Positions 2,042-55,420 of a stretch of DNA of 64,000 nt are shown piece after piece. The stretch is from Tenericutes bacterium HGW-Tenericutes-2 (GTDB taxonomy: Bacteria > Bacillota_I > Bacilli_A > Acholeplasmatales > Acholeplasmataceae). How positions within the stretch are numbered: position 1 is the first letter of the stretch; every line of letters starts with the position of its first letter. Made by a program: the position numbers and the translations under genes. The stretch lies in assembly GCA_002839095.1 (NCBI GenBank), contig PGXL01000004.1, forward strand, positions 1 through 64,000, written 5' to 3'. The notes below the pieces were generated by a model. It saw nothing but the letters and a program-made list of their open reading frames with translations. It had not been told where the DNA came from and made no database searches.

Positions 2042-2893
2042 ATGAGTGAGAAAATTGGATTAGTTGTGTGTGGAAATTCAGGCGTTGATTACATGAAGTT
2101 AGATTATCCTGTGAAAATGATTAGATCTACATTAAACCTTGGAGGGAAAGAATACGAAGATTATGTCGATATTCAAGCTAAAGAATTTTATGATATAATT
2201 AATGCGAATCCCGAAATAGATTTATCAACTTCACAAACCTCTACTGGAAAAATTGCAAGTGTTTATGAAGAGTTGAAAGATGAAGGCTATACTGATATAA
2301 TTGCAGTAGTTATTTCTTCAAAACTAAGTGGAACTTACCAAGGTGCTGTACTCGCTAAAGATATGGTACAAGGGATTAATGTATTTGTCATTGACTCGAG
2401 AAGCGTTTCTTACGGGGAAGCATATCTTGTATTAGAAGCTATTAAGATGATTAAAAATGGTAGTAAGGTTAGAGATATTATAGACAAATTAGAAAAGATT
2501 AGAGATCATATTTATATTTATGTACTAGTTGATACCCTTAAGTTTTTAGTAAAAAATGGTAGATTGTCTGCAGCAAGTGGATTTTTAGGAACACTTTTAA
2601 AAATCAAACCTTTATTACATGTTCAAAGAGATGGAACTTTAGTTCCATTTGAAAAAATTAGAACAACTAGTAAAGCACAAGCTAGACTTGTTGAAGTAAT
2701 TAAGCACGATATTGAAGGAAAAAATGTAGTTATGTTTATTGCTTTTACGAATAATGAGGATAAAGCTAAAGAGATTAAACAACAAATACTTGGATTTAGA
2801 CCTGATATTACAGTTGAGTTAGTACCTCTTACTCCTGTAGTAGGCGCACATGCAGGCCCTGGTACATTAGGTGTTGGATACATAGTATTATAA
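2042..2893 (+). CDS. DegV family fatty-acid-binding protein (FakB-like)
   Basis: A 283-residue cytoplasmic protein of normal DegV length. DegV/FakB proteins bind one fatty acid and present it to the FakA kinase for acyl-phosphate formation and phospholipid synthesis. Supporting motifs: the N-terminal domain with DLSTSQTSTG near residues 60-70, the SSKLSGTYQGA segment near 92-102, the DSRSVSYGEA segment near 118-127, and the C-terminal VVGAHAGPGTLGVGY motif typical of the family. AAGGAG at 2025-2030 precedes the ATG. The next gene is a FabT-like regulator 18 bases on, which makes a fatty-acid-sensing operon likely. No fakA lies in the window. Several DegV paralogues usually coexist, so lipid specificity cannot be told. 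Confidence 0.9.
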   Translation: MSEKIGLVVCGNSGVDYMKLDYPVKMIRSTLNLGGKEYEDYVDIQAKEFYDIINANPEIDLSTSQTSTGKIASVYEELKDEGYTDIIAVVISSKLSGTYQGAVLAKDMVQGINVFVIDSRSVSYGEAYLVLEAIKMIKNGSKVRDIIDKLEKIRDHIYIYVLVDTLKFLVKNGRLSAASGFLGTLLKIKPLLHVQRDGTLVPFEKIRTTSKAQARLVEVIKHDIEGKNVVMFIAFTNNEDKAKEIKQQILGFRPDITVELVPLTPVVGAHAGPGTLGVGYIVL

Positions 2894-2911
2894 AAAAAGG
2901 TGGTATGTAGA

Positions 2912-3349
2912 GTGATTTCTCCTAAAGAAGTAATTAATGAGTTGTTGGTTGATGTGTTTAATCATATCTTAAGTATCGAAGCAGATGTCCTAAAACAAAG
3001 AGGAGTAAAAATCTCGATGACAGAGGTTCATGTGCTGGAAGCAATAAAAAATTCACAAATTCCAACAATGGGCAGCGTAGCGCAAAAGCTAAGAGTGACT
3101 TTAGGAACATTAACAACATCTATTAATGTTTTGGTAAGAAAAAACTATGTTGTTAGATATAGAGATGAGTCAGATCGTAGAAAAGTATATCTAAAACTGT
3201 CCGATTCTGCACTAGATGTTTTGAAGGTACATGATGAATTTCATAACGAGATGGTTTCATCACTTTTCAAAGATTTGGAATTAGAAAAAGACGAAGTACT
3301 TATGAAATCTTTGGAGAATATAAGCCAATATTTTAAAGAACACTATTAA
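2912..3349 (+). CDS. MarR family regulator, FabT-like
   Basis: A 145-residue winged-helix repressor. The GTG at 2912 is preferred because AAGGTGG (2898-2904) sits seven bases upstream; a GTG at 2900 in the same frame overlaps that site. The core follows the FabT pattern: TEVHVLEAI, then the recognition helix VTLGTLTTSINVLVRKNYV, then the wing DESDRRKVYLKL with the conserved Asp-Arg-Arg. FabT represses fatty acid synthesis genes when bound to acyl-ACP. Here it is co-transcribed with a fatty-acid-binding DegV protein, and a FabT-like palindrome lies in the operon promoter at 2004-2018. No fab genes are in the window. Another MarR subgroup remains possible. Confidence 0.85.
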   Translation: MISPKEVINELLVDVFNHILSIEADVLKQRGVKISMTEVHVLEAIKNSQIPTMGSVAQKLRVTLGTLTTSINVLVRKNYVVRYRDESDRRKVYLKLSDSALDVLKVHDEFHNEMVSSLFKDLELEKDEVLMKSLENISQYFKEHY

Positions 3350-3367
3350 AAGTTAAAAAACTAAAGT

Positions 3368-3393
3368 AAAGCATCCTTTAGGATGCTTTTTTC
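3368..3393 (+). terminator. terminator after the degV-marR operon
   Basis: AAGCATCC, TTTA loop, GGATGCTT and a run of T: a clean intrinsic terminator about 20 bases after the marR stop. Confidence 0.92.
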
Positions 3394-3474
3394 TATGAAA
3401 TTTTTAAGAAAAAATGGCTCAAAATTGAAAGTTTTATAGTATAATATTTATAGGTTTTATAAGGAGGTTCTCGT

Positions 3475-4413
3475 ATGGAAAAGTATGTTTATGGCGTTGA
3501 TATTGGCGGGACAAATATTAAATTTGGCCTATTTTCTATTCCTAAAATGGAATTGATTCAAAAACATGAGAACAGTACTCCTTTAACCAATCATGAGACA
3601 AGTGTATTTACCCTTGTTGCTGAAACTATCAACAAAATAAACAAAGAAAATAATATTGAGATATCTCAAGTTGAAGGGGTTGGTATTGCTGTACCTTGTC
3701 CGGTTAAAAACGGATATGTTGAAAAATGTCCCAATTTAAAATGGGAAAAGTTGGATATACATTCATCTCTAAGTAACTATCTTCCTAGCGGTATAAAAAT
3801 TGCTGTATCTAATGATGCAAATATAGCTGCCTATGGAGAAAATCAAAGTTTAGAAATTCCTCACAAAAATGCTATTTTTTACACACTTGGAACTGGTGTC
3901 GGTGGAGGGATTATTATTGATGGAGAAATACTAGAAGGCAGAACCGGAGCTGGTGGAGAGATTGGGCACATGCATGTTTTTGAGGGAACTGAACCATGTA
4001 GTTGTGGTCTATCTGGATGCCTTGAACAAGTTTGTGGCACTTCCGCAATTCTAAAGAAAGCTCGTGAATTGTCTTTAATATATCCAACACAACTTAATCT
4101 AGAAAAACTAACAGTAAAAGATGTTTTTGATTATGCAAAATCAGGAGATACAGTGGCAATGAAAGTTGTTAATCGTATCGGTGAATATATGGCTATAAGT
4201 GCTAGCATACTATCTGTAAGTTTAGATCCGGATATATTTATCATTGGCGGAGGAATTTCGAAAGCTGGTGATATCTTGATAGATACAATAAAAAAACATT
4301 ACATTAATCACGCAAGATTTGGAACAGGGGACATACCATTTGTACTTGCAAAAACTGGAAATGATGCAGGAATAATAGGAGCAGCGTACTACGTGGCTAA
4401 AAAAAACACATAA
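3475..4413 (+). CDS. ROK family sugar kinase (glucokinase-like)
   Basis: A 312-residue cytoplasmic kinase, normal for the ROK family. The N-terminal phosphate-binding motif DIGGTNIKFG lies at residues 9-18. VSNDANIAAYGE contains the catalytic Asp, GTGVGGGIIIDGE follows, and the zinc site is formed by GEIGHMH and CSCGLSGCLE (CxCGxxGCxE), the ROK signature. ROK kinases phosphorylate glucose or related hexoses with ATP, but sugar specificity cannot be read from the sequence. AAGGAGG precedes the ATG, and a TATAAT lies at 3440-3445 without a clear -35. The next gene starts 14 bases after the stop and encodes an enzyme I-like protein, so this may be a sugar-metabolism operon. Confidence 0.92.
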   Translation: MEKYVYGVDIGGTNIKFGLFSIPKMELIQKHENSTPLTNHETSVFTLVAETINKINKENNIEISQVEGVGIAVPCPVKNGYVEKCPNLKWEKLDIHSSLSNYLPSGIKIAVSNDANIAAYGENQSLEIPHKNAIFYTLGTGVGGGIIIDGEILEGRTGAGGEIGHMHVFEGTEPCSCGLSGCLEQVCGTSAILKKARELSLIYPTQLNLEKLTVKDVFDYAKSGDTVAMKVVNRIGEYMAISASILSVSLDPDIFIIGGGISKAGDILIDTIKKHYINHARFGTGDIPFVLAKTGNDAGIIGAAYYVAKKNT

Positions 4414-4427
4414 GGAAAAATTCGAGG

Positions 4428-6101
4428 ATGGCTGAAATAATATACGCGGATAAGGAAAAATGCATATTTTTAACATGGGGCAATGCCCAAGGAAAACAGG
4501 TTGTTTATAAGGAAGCAATTGGAAGAGTAGAATCAGATGAATCAACTTTTATTGAATTCATCGAAAAACTTCAGGTTGCAGTTGATGATGAGATGCATAT
4601 TGCAAAACCAATTATTGCAAGTCAAGATGTGTTAAAAAGCATTGATGGTGTATTAATGGATGCTGTAAACATTATTCATAAAGAAGCTTTTTTAAGTTAT
4701 TATAAAACGCTTGTTTTTATGAAAAAATACGATATCAGAAAAGCATTCCAAGAAGCATTTAATGCAAATAAGCATTTTGTGATGAACGAAAAATATCGTT
4801 GGACTTCTCCTAAAGAAGTTGAAGAAATTTTGGAATATACAAAAAAGAGAGTAACCAGCTTAATTAATAAAGTGCTCATTAAAGATTTAATAAAGGATAT
4901 AAAAGAGGATTTTATTTTTATTACTGAGAATTTTCAGACAGAAATATTTGATAATGTTTCTAAACATTTAAAGGGTGTTATTTGCACAAAAAGACATACA
5001 ATAGGAGAGCCTAGTGCATATTCAATAGATTTTGGTATTCCTCTAATTGTCTGCACTAACGCAATTAATACTAGTAGTTATTTATTGATTGATGGCGATA
5101 AAAGGGAGCTTATAATTGATCCCACAGATGAACGCAAAGCTGCTCATTTAAAATTAATTAATGACCGAGCAGATGTTAAGCAAGGTGATTTAACATTTAA
5201 GAATCCACAATTCAGAATTTTTGCCTCAACAGTTGATACTCTATCAATAGAATCGATAGCTGAATCTAATAATTATTATGGATTGTGTTCCTTTAGAACA
5301 GAATATCTCTATACTGCTAGAGGGATTACACCAAGTTTGGAAGAGCAAACCGAAAAATATGTGAATATTATTCAAAAAATGGGTAACAAAGAAGTATATT
5401 TTGAAATTCCTCGTTTTGATCATATTGTTAAACTTGATATTATGAAGAATGAAGTTACCGATTTAGATGGAATGGATAAGTGTGCAAAGATTTTTGAAGT
5501 ATTTTTAGATGCTGTGGCAGCAGCATCAGCAATTACAGATAAGAAGCTAAGTATCATCGTACCATCAATATTGTTAAAGGATGAAGTGCGAGAGTGGATA
5601 ATGCATGTTGAGTATCACTTTGCAAAAAGGAAAGCTCAAAGACCGTTTATTGGTGGAGTTTTTGAAACAGAAACTCCAGTAGTGTATGCAACTGATTTCA
5701 AGAAATTTGATTTTGTTATTGTTAGCTTAGATGATTTTTACGATGAAGCAGACGATGATTTTAATAAGCTTAGAGGTAATGCGCATATTGAAATGCTTAA
5801 TGCGGTCACCATAGATGATCTAAGAAGAATGCATAGAATTTTATCGCGCTTAAGGAAGGCTCAACGACATATATTGCGTGGAAACGTACTAACTCACCCA
5901 GGAATACTGCATAAATTCATAAAAAGAGGGTTTAAAGAGTTTGCAATTCCAGCTAATAAGATGTATTTGGTTCATGAAGTTTTTAAGAAACACCTAGATA
6001 ATATTGGTAAGTACGTAGGATATAGAGCATTGCAGAAAGCAAAGAAAGAACGTGAACTGTTGGAAGCTAAATCCGACGACGATGACGACAATAGTCTTTA
6101 A
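4428..6101 (+). CDS. degenerate PTS enzyme I homologue lacking catalytic His and Cys
   Basis: A 557-residue protein with the layout of PTS enzyme I (PEP-protein phosphotransferase): N-terminal helical part (1-180), swivelling domain (about 183-235) and TIM barrel (about 255-530). The C-terminal half aligns by eye: LCSFRTEYLYTARGITPS near 287-303 matches the enzyme I GLYRTEFLF segment, and GGVFETETP (409-417) and SLDDF (433-437) match the PEP/Mg-binding strands. In the swivelling domain the phosphorylated His of the GGRTSH motif is replaced by Ala197 (GEPSAY). The active-site Cys of the TGMCGE motif becomes Arg484 (LRGN), and the barrel Arg after the third strand is also lost. It therefore probably cannot pass phosphate from PEP to HPr and may be regulatory. 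Acidic C-terminal tail. Cotranscribed with the ROK kinase. A PEP-utilising relative of unknown activity is the alternative. Confidence 0.72.
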   Translation: MAEIIYADKEKCIFLTWGNAQGKQVVYKEAIGRVESDESTFIEFIEKLQVAVDDEMHIAKPIIASQDVLKSIDGVLMDAVNIIHKEAFLSYYKTLVFMKKYDIRKAFQEAFNANKHFVMNEKYRWTSPKEVEEILEYTKKRVTSLINKVLIKDLIKDIKEDFIFITENFQTEIFDNVSKHLKGVICTKRHTIGEPSAYSIDFGIPLIVCTNAINTSSYLLIDGDKRELIIDPTDERKAAHLKLINDRADVKQGDLTFKNPQFRIFASTVDTLSIESIAESNNYYGLCSFRTEYLYTARGITPSLEEQTEKYVNIIQKMGNKEVYFEIPRFDHIVKLDIMKNEVTDLDGMDKCAKIFEVFLDAVAAASAITDKKLSIIVPSILLKDEVREWIMHVEYHFAKRKAQRPFIGGVFETETPVVYATDFKKFDFVIVSLDDFYDEADDDFNKLRGNAHIEMLNAVTIDDLRRMHRILSRLRKAQRHILRGNVLTHPGILHKFIKRGFKEFAIPANKMYLVHEVFKKHLDNIGKYVGYRALQKAKKERELLEAKSDDDDDNSL

Positions 6102-6166
6102 TAGGGATTATTGTCCAATATAATGAATAAAAAATGTAACTCGGATGAGAAAATGTGACAAAAGTG

Positions 6167-6195
6167 TTGCTTTTCTCATCCTTTTCTTATATAAT
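6167..6195 (+). promoter_or_regulatory. promoter of the S10-spc-alpha operon
   Basis: TTGCTT (6167-6172), a 17-base spacer and a perfect TATAAT (6190-6195). It is the only strong promoter seen in front of the ribosomal protein cluster. Confidence 0.85.
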
Positions 6196-6326
6196 TATAA
6201 CGCTCGTGTGAAAACGAGCAGGCTGTGAAATGGAAGGTTGCTGACACACGGATAGCCGTTGTCTACGTGTTAGGTTTTTCTATGGAGCAAGTCTATACAG
6301 GATTATAGGCGAAAGGAGCTAGTAAA
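6196..6326 (+). promoter_or_regulatory. structured 5' leader of the S10 operon
   Basis: About 120 transcribed bases before rpsJ hold nested hairpins. GCTCGT (6202-6207) pairs with ACGAGC (6214-6219). CTGACACACG (6241-6250) pairs with CGTGTTAG (6266-6273) around an inner CGG-ATAG-CCG hairpin, and this is followed by GTTTTTC, which looks like an attenuator. In gammaproteobacteria the S10 leader is controlled by L4; whether a similar autogenous control works here is only an inference. Confidence 0.5.
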
Positions 6327-6635
6327 ATGGCAAAAGATGTTATTAAAATTCGTTTGAAGGCATATGATCACAGATTAATCGATCAAGCTGCAAAAAAGAT
6401 TGTTGACAGTGCTTTAAGAACAGGAGCAACTGTTCAAGGACCAATTCCTCTTCCAACTGAAAAGGAAATCTTCACAATCTTACGTTCCCCACACGTTAAC
6501 AAAGATTCACGTGAACAGTTTGAACGTAGAACGCACAAGAGATTAATTCAAATTATTGATCCAAACCCAAAAACAATTAGTGCATTAATGGATATTGATC
6601 TACCATCCGGTATTGATATCGTACTTAAGAAATAG
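6327..6635 (+). CDS. rpsJ: 30S ribosomal protein S10 (NusE)
   Basis: 102 residues, full length, starting [20 protein letters not shown]10 binds 16S rRNA in the 30S head and, as NusE, joins antitermination complexes. AAGGAG eight bases before the ATG. First gene of the S10 operon in the standard bacterial order, behind the promoter at 6167-6195. Confidence 0.98.
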
Positions 6636-49566: not shown

Positions 49567-49574
49567 AAGATTAT

Positions 49575-49800
49575 CATAGGCAATGAGAAAAAGAGTAGCT
49601 TAGGTGATTGCGTTTTAGAGAGTTCGCGTTTGGTGCAAGCGAACCCATCACTAAGTGAATATGATTTTTGAGCCTTTCGATCGATATGTAGATCGAAACG
49701 TCATTCCGCGTTAAGGTGAAGAGTGCTAGAATTTATTCTAGAACTAAGGTGGTACCGCGACTTATGTCGTCCTTAGAGTTTTTTAAAGGACGACTTTTAT
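49575..49800 (+). promoter_or_regulatory. T-box riboswitch upstream of metG (Met-tRNA sensing)
   Basis: The T-box element AAGGTGGTACCGCG (49745-49758) is present in full. Stem I features include AGAGAG (49617-49622) and GGTGCAAGC (49632-49640). The intrinsic terminator GTCGTCCTT (49766-49774), with AAAGGACGAC (49785-49794) and a T run, competes with the antiterminator made by the T-box. A candidate specifier ATG lies at 49661-49663, consistent with metG control by uncharged tRNA-Met. The specifier is assigned from context, not from a full fold. Confidence 0.93.
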
Positions 49801-52461: not shown

Positions 52462-53379
52462 ATGATTTATACGTTAACCATCAATCCATCGGTCGATTAT
52501 AAAATTAAAATCGATGAATTCAATCCTGGTCAATTGAATCGATTTGAAGAGCATTTATTTGTTGCCGGTGGAAAGGGCATCAATTGTTCGATTGTTCTAA
52601 AAAATCTTGGTATAGAAAATAAAGCAATCGCTTTTTTAGGTGGATTTACTGGCGCATATATAAAAAAAGAACTTGAGAAGAAGGAAATAGATTTAATTTC
52701 AATACCGATAAAATCTGAAACAAGAATGAATGTTAAGGTGAAGACGAAGACTGAAGAATCAGAAATCAATCATCAGGGACCAAAAATCACTACCAAAGAT
52801 TTTGATCAATTGCTTCATATCATTTCAAGTCTTAAGCATAACGATTTACTAATCATTGGTGGATCTAGTCTAGATTCTATTCCTAATGCATATCAAAAAA
52901 TTGGCGAGCTATCCGTAAAAAATCAATTTATGCTTATTATGGATACTCCAGGAAGATATATCAAGGAATATATAAAATTTAACCCCTTACTTATTAAACC
53001 TAATTTACAAGAGCTTGAAGATTACTTTGAAACAAAAATTAAAAATATAGATGAAATCATCTTCTATGGCAAGAAAATGATTGAGCAAGGAGCCCTTAAT
53101 CTTATCATTTCGTTAGGCAGTGAAGGATCCTTATATTTGAATAAAGATAAGGTTTACCAAGCACTTCCAATCGATGGAGAAATACTTTCAACAACTGGAG
53201 CAGGAGATTCAATGGTCGCAGGATTCACCTATCAATACGGACTTAATCAAAACCTTCTTACAGCCTATAAAATGGCGGTTGCAGCAAGTGCAGCAACCGT
53301 ATTCGAACAAACACTCGCAACCAAGGAAAACACCTTTAAATACCTAGAAAAAGTAATTATTAAGGAGATTATATGCTAA
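52462..53379 (+). CDS. fruK: 1-phosphofructokinase
   Basis: 305 residues of the PfkB family. AGGKGINCSIVLKNLG near 35-50 and the catalytic TTGAGDSMVAGF near 247-258. Converts fructose 1-phosphate, made by the fructose PTS, to the bisphosphate. GGAGGG upstream. Overlaps the IIA gene by seven bases. Confidence 0.95.
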   Translation: MIYTLTINPSVDYKIKIDEFNPGQLNRFEEHLFVAGGKGINCSIVLKNLGIENKAIAFLGGFTGAYIKKELEKKEIDLISIPIKSETRMNVKVKTKTEESEINHQGPKITTKDFDQLLHIISSLKHNDLLIIGGSSLDSIPNAYQKIGELSVKNQFMLIMDTPGRYIKEYIKFNPLLIKPNLQELEDYFETKIKNIDEIIFYGKKMIEQGALNLIISLGSEGSLYLNKDKVYQALPIDGEILSTTGAGDSMVAGFTYQYGLNQNLLTAYKMAVAASAATVFEQTLATKENTFKYLEKVIIKEIIC

Positions 53380-53828
53380 CAATTCATGAACTAACCAATC
53401 TATCCTTGATTCATATGAATCTAAAATCAGTTACTAAGGATGGCGTACTATTCGAGCTTGCAAATTATTTAGCAAATGAAAAAAGAGTATCTGATACTAA
53501 ACTATTTTTAAATGATGTTTATGAAAGAGAAGAAATTGTTTCAACAGGCATTGGTATGAAAATAGCTATACCCCATGCAAAATCGAAGCACGTTCTTATC
53601 CCTTCAGTCATTTTTGGCAAAAGTGAAAATGGAATTGAGTTTGATTCCCTAGATAATAAGCCTGCGCATTTGTTTTTTATGATTGCGATGCCAGAGGATA
53701 GTGCAAATCAGCATTTAAAGGTATTAGCTTTATTATCAAGAAAATTAATGCATGAATCCTTTAGAGAATCACTCATGCAAGCGAAAACAAAAGAAGAAGT
53801 TTTAGCACTTCTATATACAATGGAGTAA
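53373..53828 (+). CDS. PTS fructose-type component IIA
   Basis: 151 residues. The phosphorylated His68 is in GIGMKIAIPHAKS. A stand-alone IIA domain. With IIB and IIC it completes a fructose-family permease. Receives phosphate from HPr; no HPr or genuine enzyme I is in this window. Confidence 0.93.
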   Translation: MLTIHELTNLSLIHMNLKSVTKDGVLFELANYLANEKRVSDTKLFLNDVYEREEIVSTGIGMKIAIPHAKSKHVLIPSVIFGKSENGIEFDSLDNKPAHLFFMIAMPEDSANQHLKVLALLSRKLMHESFRESLMQAKTKEEVLALLYTME

Positions 53829-53831
53829 AAT

Positions 53832-54161
53832 ATGAAAAAAATAGTTGCAGTAACTGCATGTCCAACAGGTATCGCGCATACCTATATGGCTGCAGAGGTT
53901 TTAGAATCAGAGGGTAGAAAACTAGGTGTAGAAGTTATCGTTGAAACCAATGGATCCATTGGTGTTGAAAACAGACTTCAATCTAAGGATATCAAAGAAA
54001 GCATCGCTGTTATTATAGCTACTGATATCAGAGTTGAAAAGGCTAGATTTTCAGGAAAGCCCCTAAAGGAAGTGACGATTACCTATGGTATTCATCACGC
54101 AAAGGAACTTATTGAACAAGCACTTCAGGGAAGCTTTAAAATATATAATCCAGAAGAATAG
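53832..54161 (+). CDS. PTS fructose-type component IIB
   Basis: 109 residues. Phosphorylated Cys10 lies in AVTACPTGIAHTYMAAE. A stand-alone IIB domain. Confidence 0.94.
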   Translation: MKKIVAVTACPTGIAHTYMAAEVLESEGRKLGVEVIVETNGSIGVENRLQSKDIKESIAVIIATDIRVEKARFSGKPLKEVTITYGIHHAKELIEQALQGSFKIYNPEE

Positions 54162-54177
54162 AAAGTAGTTGATTATT

Positions 54178-55176
54178 ATGGATAGAACCAAGCTATATAA
54201 ACATTTAATGAATGGTTTTTCATTTATGATTCCTTTTGTAGTTGCAGGAGGTATATTTTTAGCGTTATCATCGTTATCTCTATTTGAACCCATCATGCTA
54301 TGGATGGAAGAAACAGGAACTGTTACCTTCCAATATATACTACCTATATTAGCAGGCTACATTGCATACTCAATTGCAGATAGACCCGGCATACTTCCAG
54401 GATTCATTGCAGGAGCACTGGCCTTAAATGGTGATTCAGGCTTTGTAGGAGCGATTTTAGGAGGGTTTGCTGCTGGGTATTCAGTTGAACTCATCAAACT
54501 TTTAACTAAGAAAATACCAAGATCAATGATTAGCATGAAAACCATTTTAATCCTTCCTATCTTTGGTTTACTTTTCGCATCACTATCCATGCTCTTAATC
54601 AATTTCTTGTTTTCTCCATTAAGCATTTATCTAGAAACACAAATTGTTGAACTGAATGGAATACCTTTAATTATCGTTGCTATCATCGCTGGCGCACTCA
54701 TGGCATTTGATCTAGGTGGACCAGTCAATAAGATTGTTTATCTAGTTGGTGTGATTGCTATTTTTCATGCACATTCCTCTATCTTAATGGCATCCATTAT
54801 GGCTGCTGGAATGACTCCACCCTTAGGAGTAGCACTTGCAACACTCCTATTTAAGAATCTTTACACAGAAGAAGAAAGAAAAATGGGGAAATCCAATTGG
54901 ATTACCGGCGCATCCTTCATCACTGAAGGTGCAATCCCGTTTGCTAAAAAAGACCCAAAGGTCATGCGTCCCGCATTAATTATTGGAAGTGTCTTAGCAG
55001 CTCTTATAGTAGCAATCATTGGTGTATCCGTTCCTGCTCCACATGGAGGAATATTTGTTGTCTTCTTAATGACCAATTGGTGGGGGTTCTTAATCGCGAT
55101 TACTGCAGGGACTGTAGCTTCTGCTTTATATATCGGAATATTTACTAAGGAAATTGATGAATTTGATCAACCATAA
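54178..55176 (+). CDS. PTS fructose-type component IIC
   Basis: 332 residues with about nine membrane helices. GFIAGALALNGDSGFVGAIL, FDLGGPVNKI and FITEGAIPFA are conserved IIC motifs. The ATG at 54178 is preferred, though its binding site (GAAAG) is weak. Carries the sugar across the membrane. Three separate proteins rather than the IIABC fusion common in Firmicutes. Confidence 0.92.
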   Translation: MDRTKLYKHLMNGFSFMIPFVVAGGIFLALSSLSLFEPIMLWMEETGTVTFQYILPILAGYIAYSIADRPGILPGFIAGALALNGDSGFVGAILGGFAAGYSVELIKLLTKKIPRSMISMKTILILPIFGLLFASLSMLLINFLFSPLSIYLETQIVELNGIPLIIVAIIAGALMAFDLGGPVNKIVYLVGVIAIFHAHSSILMASIMAAGMTPPLGVALATLLFKNLYTEEERKMGKSNWITGASFITEGAIPFAKKDPKVMRPALIIGSVLAALIVAIIGVSVPAPHGGIFVVFLMTNWWGFLIAITAGTVASALYIGIFTKEIDEFDQP

Positions 55177-55240: not shown

Positions 55241-55270
55241 TTTACATTACAAACTTTTTTTTGTTATAAT
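55241..55270 (+). promoter_or_regulatory. promoter of the purine permease transcript
   Basis: TTTACA (55241-55246), 18-base spacer, TATAAT (55265-55270). Confidence 0.7.
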
Positions 55271-55283
55271 GATGGAGTATTCA

Positions 55284-55420
55284 ATGTATCGTATAATCGA
55301 CCTGATGTGGAGGTCAAGTTTCTACCGCGTTTCCGTAAAATTCGCGACTACGATATGAAAGCAACCTTTTTATTTGTTTTCATATGTAGAAACCGCTATT
55401 AATTTCGTGGTTTTTTTATT
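55284..55420 (+). promoter_or_regulatory. guanine-class purine riboswitch with terminator
   Basis: The P1 stem is GTATCG (55286-55291) with CGATAT (55351-55356). The core elements TATAAT (55292-55297), AAGTTTCTACC (55316-55326) and GACTAC (55346-55351) match the purine aptamer, and the specificity base is C at 55348, as in guanine/hypoxanthine types (U in adenine types). Downstream, ATATGAAA of P1's 3' flank can pair with TTTCATAT (55378-55385), and AGAAACCGC (55388-55396) with GTGGTTTTT (55407-55415) plus T run forms a terminator. It should turn off the permease when purine is plentiful. Confidence 0.93.

Follow-up and report, generated by a model that had tools for sequence, protein, structure and literature searches.

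An enzyme I homologue that has lost its catalytic residues is kept upstream of rpsJ in Acholeplasmataceae

Between a ROK family sugar kinase gene and the S10 ribosomal protein operon, the genome of Tenericutes bacterium HGW-Tenericutes-2 encodes a homologue of enzyme I (EI) of the phosphotransferase system (PTS) in which both the catalytic histidine and the catalytic cysteine are replaced. We consider this protein probably to be an EI-derived pseudoenzyme that descends from a once catalytic second EI lineage encoded at this position and that has been repurposed outside the phosphorelay. The gene lies in the window, by which we mean the whole stretch of 64,000 nucleotides analysed here (Table 1). 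Dead EI is kept even in relatives that seemingly lack a PTS, which suggests that it probably has some other job.

Table 1. Features of the window that bear on the pseudoenzyme gene
Feature	Position	Strand	Evidence
DegV/FakB family protein, syntenic marker	2042..2893	+	DegV E 2.7e-81; synteny
MarR/FabT-like regulator, syntenic marker	2900..3349	+	FabT model E 4.2e-33, below its cut-off; synteny
Terminator-like hairpin in the interval between the FabT-like and ROK genes	3368..3389	+	
ROK family (glucokinase-like) sugar kinase	3475..4413	+	ROK PF00480 E 7.6e-63; ROK_glcA_fam E 8.7e-67, below that family's cut-off
EI-derived pseudoenzyme gene (putative), 557 aa	4428..6101	+	ORF, profile, phmmer, predicted fold, alignments
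Long hairpin followed by a T-rich stretch, directly 3' of the pseudoenzyme gene	6143..6181	+	-20.7 kcal/mol, z -6.1
S10-Clostridia ribosomal protein leader	6217..6312	+	Rfam RF03136, 36.5 bits vs gathering 35.1
rpsJ (S10), constant downstream neighbour of the pseudoenzyme family	6327..6635	+	name recognised from sequence
Fructose PTS operon: PfkB-type kinase, EIIA, EIIB, EIIC	52462..55176	+	PF02378 one match, ORFs

Enzyme I ancestry and predicted fold

The FRTEYLYTARGITPS, FETETP and SLDDF blocks, from which a sequence-only reading of this DNA had proposed descent from EI, are present in the window protein as described. The EI family model TIGR01417 (PTS_I_fam) matches at 50.7 bits (E 9.5e-14), short of its cut-off of 341.7, and Pfam PEP-utilizers_C matches at 24.9 bits, above its cut-off of 22.8. 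EI chains are likewise found by phmmer among PDB sequences (E 3.8e-6). A structure predicted from an alignment of 29 sequences (pLDDT 88.2, pTM 0.86) superposes over nearly its whole length on Escherichia coli EI (2hwg; Z 31.2, 472 residues, rmsd 5.5, 17% identity), the comparison that the earlier reading had proposed as a check, and also on the PEP-bound EI barrel (2xz7; Z 26.6, 268 residues, rmsd 2.8). On these matches and the predicted fold, we regard the EI ancestry and the whole domain layout as sound. Pyruvate phosphate dikinase and PEP synthase have related swivel and barrel domains, but their structural match to the window protein is weaker than that of EI, and searches with Pfam and NCBIfam models found no match in it to their ATP-binding domain.

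Loss of the catalytic residues

Two alignments, with which the phmmer alignment agrees, pair the phosphorylated histidine of EI (His189, E. coli numbering) with Glu194 of the window protein. The sequence-only reading had put Ala197 there and was wrong by three residues; its assignment of Arg484 to the position of the active cysteine (Cys502, E. coli numbering) is borne out. Its central claim, that both residues are lost, holds, and the alignments place no other His or Cys at those positions. His190 was considered as a substitute histidine and rejected, as the two closest full relatives of the window protein have Pro and Gln there. The cysteines C12, C186, C209 and C287 are common to the three closest copies, and none of them falls at the Cys502 position.

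Loss is also evident among the residues that we take to be the PEP and Mg ligands of EI. The window protein retains R290, E413 and D436, the equivalents of Arg296, Glu431 and Asp455; Arg332, Arg358 and Asn454 have become Glu326, Asp347 and Asp435, and the position of Arg465 holds Lys447 or Asp444, depending on the alignment. The complete ligand set is absent from this protein, and the arginines for the PEP phosphate are gone. Arg358 is a poor catalytic marker, since the live rpsJ-locus copies described below and the f3 short EIs are also without Arg there.

The pattern extends to the family as a whole. Among the 34 aligned copies from Acholeplasmataceae (f1), His189 is found in none of the 31 and Cys502 in none of the 32 that have a residue at the respective position. 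Both residues, along with R296, R332, E431, N454, D455 and R465, are present in 24 of 24 canonical EIs, in 6 of 6 f3 short EIs and in 8 of 8 rpsJ-locus copies outside f1; below, we call the last of these live and the f1 copies dead. Part of the old site persists in the f1 copies: Glu431 is kept in 28 of the 34 and lost in 6, Glu431 together with Asp at 454 or 455 is kept in 26, and E431, D455, R332 and R465 are all kept in 7. Dead copies also have common residues of their own, Pro328 (29/30), Trp390 (29/30), His469 (24/30), His481 (22/30), which stands three residues ahead of the former Cys position, and Gly527 (29/30), as well as a new C-terminal motif, RGxYxG; neither these residues nor the stretch Gly527–Gly531 is the prevailing state in live copies or canonical EI.

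An intact EI elsewhere in the genome

The source genome (2.30 Mb in 52 contigs, completeness 99.9) encodes a second, complete ptsI, which the sequence-only reading had recommended looking for; it carries GGKTSH and CGEMGGD and adjoins ptsH. The residue loss thus does not affect the only EI of the cell, and the dead EI is an extra protein. HPr has three matches in the genome and PTS_EIIC (PF02378) has one, at 54208–54987 of the window inside the fructose-type operon, the other subunits of which were named from motifs. A separate, longer PEP-utilising enzyme, presumably pyruvate phosphate dikinase, is also encoded. In the same part of the window, a methionyl-tRNA synthetase-like gene is preceded by a T-box leader (49574–49777), and a permease-like gene by a purine riboswitch (55269–55370), both genes being named by recognition of their sequence.

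Gene order and distribution

As had been noted from the sequence, the pseudoenzyme gene sits behind the ROK gene; it starts 14 nt after the stop codon of that gene, in the same direction, and a gap of 225 nt separates it from rpsJ on the same strand. Because a terminator-like hairpin lies between the FabT-like and ROK genes, the ROK and pseudoenzyme genes appear to be transcribed together, and the long hairpin directly downstream likely forms the transcript end of the pseudoenzyme gene. Further upstream, positions 1258–1941 encode a 228-amino-acid protein that no Pfam or NCBIfam model matches at E 1 and that precedes FakB in most f1 loci.

Searched against 101 genomes at E 1e-3, the window protein had matches in 66, canonical EI accounting for some of them. 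By position, an EI-like gene immediately precedes rpsJ in much of Acholeplasmatales, mostly behind genes for a ROK kinase, FabT and FakB. EI-like gene and rpsJ are on one strand in 75 of the 75 loci that hold both, and ROK is adjacent in 51, in a count that includes twice several genomes occurring in both collections. Within f1, the gene is present at the rpsJ locus in 43 of 61 genomes (32 including that of the window, plus 11), one of the 43 being a 73-amino-acid fragment at a contig end and a few being loci in which the contig stops before rpsJ and only the upstream neighbours are visible. Of the 61 genomes 52 were examined, and 9 of these lack the gene at a visible locus; it is therefore dispensable. 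With the gene at the locus in 43 of 61 genomes, a single-genome oddity or a sequencing error was rejected as an explanation, and a horizontal or mobile origin found no match among plasmids or phages.

Retrieval based on FakB places the locus in Acholeplasmataceae metagenome-assembled genomes, Tenericutes MO-XQ, strain zrk7, Paracholeplasma vituli and Haploplasma modicum. A 471-amino-acid copy without a Pfam or NCBIfam match lies between FabT and rpsJ in a genome of 1,496,992 bases, which we take to be that of Acholeplasma laidlawii PG-8A. In a sample of the class, 22 of 296 genomes match at E 1e-40, all of them inside the order; this threshold misses copies of the A. laidlawii type, and the sample therefore bounds well-kept copies only.

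Several individual loci depart from the usual arrangement. In strain zrk7 (L104, 9363–11030), an in-frame TAG splits the pseudoenzyme reading frame into 441 and 96 amino acids. The rpsJ locus of L108 holds a 344-amino-acid stub (3080–4114) of which the barrel end alone is recognisable, and that of L153 holds two small reading frames of 193 and 203 amino acids (5176–6395) that do not match the model of the family. The contig L103 is labelled Fusobacteriaceae; it has the gene order of Acholeplasmataceae, its dead EI groups with the f1 copies, and it is probably misbinned.

Live relatives, descent and selection

Live copies at the rpsJ locus belong to Paracholeplasma and other outer lineages; those of P. 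vituli and its relatives (L105, L106, L071–L073, L115, L116 and L118) have about 490–525 amino acids. In a tree of 41 of the 80 aligned rows, which leaves out 39 rows including the most diverged dead copies and L113 and in which no root was inferred, the rpsJ-locus copies (8 live, 17 dead) fall on one side of a branch (support 97/93) and the canonical and f3 short EIs on the other. In the same tree, one further branch sets all live copies apart (96/89) and another does so for all dead copies (100/100). A quick tree of all 80 rows has long branches and did not resolve how live and dead copies join. In that tree L113, in which decay appears separate (a gap at the His position and Cys changed to Gly), groups with the live copies. 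Since live and dead copies share a locus and the live ones have a complete active site, loss of catalysis from a once catalytic second EI lineage is the simpler direction of change, and it is the one we infer.

The f3 short EIs (about 505 amino acids; L065, L066, L068, L069, L070 and L074) have a full active site and are the best EI match in nearly all of the listed genomes, where HPr is also present; a divergent EI may therefore be the sole EI there.

Dead copies diverge fast. The window protein is 61% and 57% identical to its two closest full copies, compared with 83–85% for ROK and 97–98% for FakB, and the mean tree distance over 17 genomes is 3.04 for the pseudoenzyme, 1.09 for ROK and 0.21 for L3. 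Yet the dead copies appear to be under purifying selection, with dN/dS well below 1. In five of seven pairs of dead copies, point values by the NG86 method are 0.140, 0.139, 0.074, 0.189 and 0.140, and in the other two pairs dS is saturated; the comparison values, also by NG86, are 0.015–0.067 for FakB and FabT, about 0.08 for ROK and 0.071 for canonical ptsI. Between the close relatives L191 and L193, dN/dS is 0.14. Most copies have an open frame of 470–620 amino acids.

Candidate functions

The sequence-only reading had suggested that a pseudo-EI could sense PEP or bind HPr without passing phosphate. Its premise stands, in that an EI pseudoenzyme does appear to be retained beside an intact ptsI; its two proposed roles fare less well. 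A regulator linked to the PTS would bind HPr, or form mixed dimers with the intact EI, and so damp or sense the fructose PTS. The source genome has an intact EI, HPr and one PTS_EIIC, the full-length EI fold is predicted to be retained, and most genomes holding the pseudoenzyme gene also have EI and HPr. However, shortened copies of 389, 359 and 393 amino acids, in which the recognisable remainder is the C-terminal barrel part, stand at the rpsJ locus of three genomes (G021, G034, which is H. modicum, and G045; completeness 99, 99 and 93%) in which no HPr was found at E 1e-3 and no EI at E 1e-20. Conversely, G030, G037 and G059 have EI and HPr and no copy at the locus, so presence of the gene is untied to the PTS in either direction. 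The HPr site of EI lies in the helical subdomain, and across the family no other folded part is conserved so little (mean pairwise identity 0.154, versus 0.289 for the barrel); PEP-utilisers_N had no match in the five dead copies scanned. Copies kept where neither HPr nor EI is detectable argue against HPr binding as a shared function, and we consider it unlikely to be the role common to the family. A PTS-linked regulator seems to us improbable as the general explanation; a species-specific PTS role in the genome of the window itself is possible.

The old ligand site suggests a sensor of PEP or another carboxylate, in which the barrel would bind Mg with PEP, pyruvate or a similar compound and signal through a partner. 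Retention of Glu431 with Asp at 454 or 455 in 26 of the 34 members makes a metal or ligand role possible for family members; E431, D455, R332 and R465 are all kept in 7, and PEP sensing itself is possible in better-kept members. In the window protein PEP sensing is doubtful, with Arg332 changed to Glu, Arg358 to Asp, Asn454 to Asp and Arg465 to Lys or Asp; moreover, 6 of the 34 have lost Glu431 and the A. laidlawii-type copy matches no Pfam or NCBIfam model. As an explanation on its own a carboxylate sensor is unlikely in our estimate, but it overlaps the reading that we prefer and could be its input. Catalysis of some other reaction by a remodelled barrel, for example through His469, His481 and the mostly retained carboxylate pair, would account for two histidines that are frequent in dead copies and not the prevailing residue in live copies or canonical EI. 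The most diverged members are without His469 and His481, however, and the genomic context points to no substrate, and we give this possibility little weight. Slow decay of a functionless remnant on its way out might be read from the very fast divergence, from the short copies (359–393 amino acids in some genera, 344 in L108), from the in-frame TAG of strain zrk7 and from the absence of the gene in several genomes; against it stand the long open frames of most copies, the dN/dS values of 0.07–0.19, that for L191 and L193 among them, and the new lineage-specific common residues. Decay is, to our minds, very improbable.

The reading we prefer, a pseudoenzyme repurposed outside the phosphorelay, starts from an ancestor in Acholeplasmatales in which a second, catalytic EI was encoded behind the ROK sugar kinase gene and ahead of the S10 operon. 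The dead protein would pass no phosphate and would act through binding, as a subunit that regulates or scaffolds, with the C-terminal barrel and the new RGxYxG stretch as its conserved business end. It might tune the activity or location of the ROK kinase in response to a ligand, which in members that still have the carboxylates could occupy the old PEP/Mg site. Members without an adjacent ROK gene would need another partner.

Evidence for the kinase as that partner is mixed. Eight loci with live copies, among which L072 and L110 are one and the same contig, have ROK and EI-like reading frames that overlap by 4 nt, an arrangement that suggests translational coupling and a joint function in the ancestor. 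Over 17 genomes, pseudoenzyme distances correlate with those of ROK (r 0.83, partial 0.76) more than with those of the fast-evolving 228-amino-acid neighbour (0.69, partial 0.48), and show no signal with FakB (partial -0.18). ROK tracks this control neighbour even better (r 0.91), however, and the co-evolution signal is therefore weak. Several genomes have the pseudoenzyme without an adjoining ROK gene (for example, L039, L046, L047 and L191), and ROK remains without the pseudoenzyme in L192, L200 and L202; each gene can be missing where its neighbour is kept, and the two are not obligate partners. Of the candidates, the co-encoded ROK kinase is the most likely partner, at rather less than an even chance.

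Discussion

The window protein shares with PtsI (TIGR01417; 2hwg) the full-length fold, the domain order and the equivalents of Arg296, Glu431 and Asp455. It differs in having no phospho-histidine and no active cysteine, in the loss of PEP-phosphate arginines, in scoring 50.7 against a cut-off of 341.7 and in its new C-terminal motif. The live protein of the P. vituli type has the same locus, the same ROK and rpsJ neighbours and the same side of the tree as the window protein; unlike it, the live protein is shorter, retains His, Cys and all the main PEP/Mg ligands and, in most loci, has a gene that overlaps ROK by 4 nt.

Many enzyme families have dead members that serve as regulators. A literature search of open PMC papers found no EI pseudoenzyme; passages of PMC2405797 and PMC5138195 contain nothing on a dead EI, and the terms sought had no match in PMC4221730 and PMC3139596. 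Among EI paralogues with a regulatory role, EINtr (PtsP) is a second EI used outside sugar transport, as we propose for the window protein. PMC2405797 describes EINtr as part of a parallel phosphorylation chain, whereas the dead copies of Acholeplasmataceae are without the residues for that.

If our reading is right, an EI pseudoenzyme family specific to this order has left the PTS altogether: a ROK–EI pair with overlapping genes would have given rise to a regulatory subunit that does not phosphorylate and serves central sugar metabolism (or to a new barrel enzyme). The product would evolve fast yet be under selection, and it would still be present in relatives without a PTS and in a laboratory organism, which we take to be A. 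laidlawii. We hold this wider interpretation at a little short of even confidence. Because live relatives persist at the same locus, it may be possible to trace step by step how catalysis was lost and a new role gained, and because culturable Acholeplasma, Haploplasma and Paracholeplasma have copies, still live in Paracholeplasma, the role of the protein can be tested.
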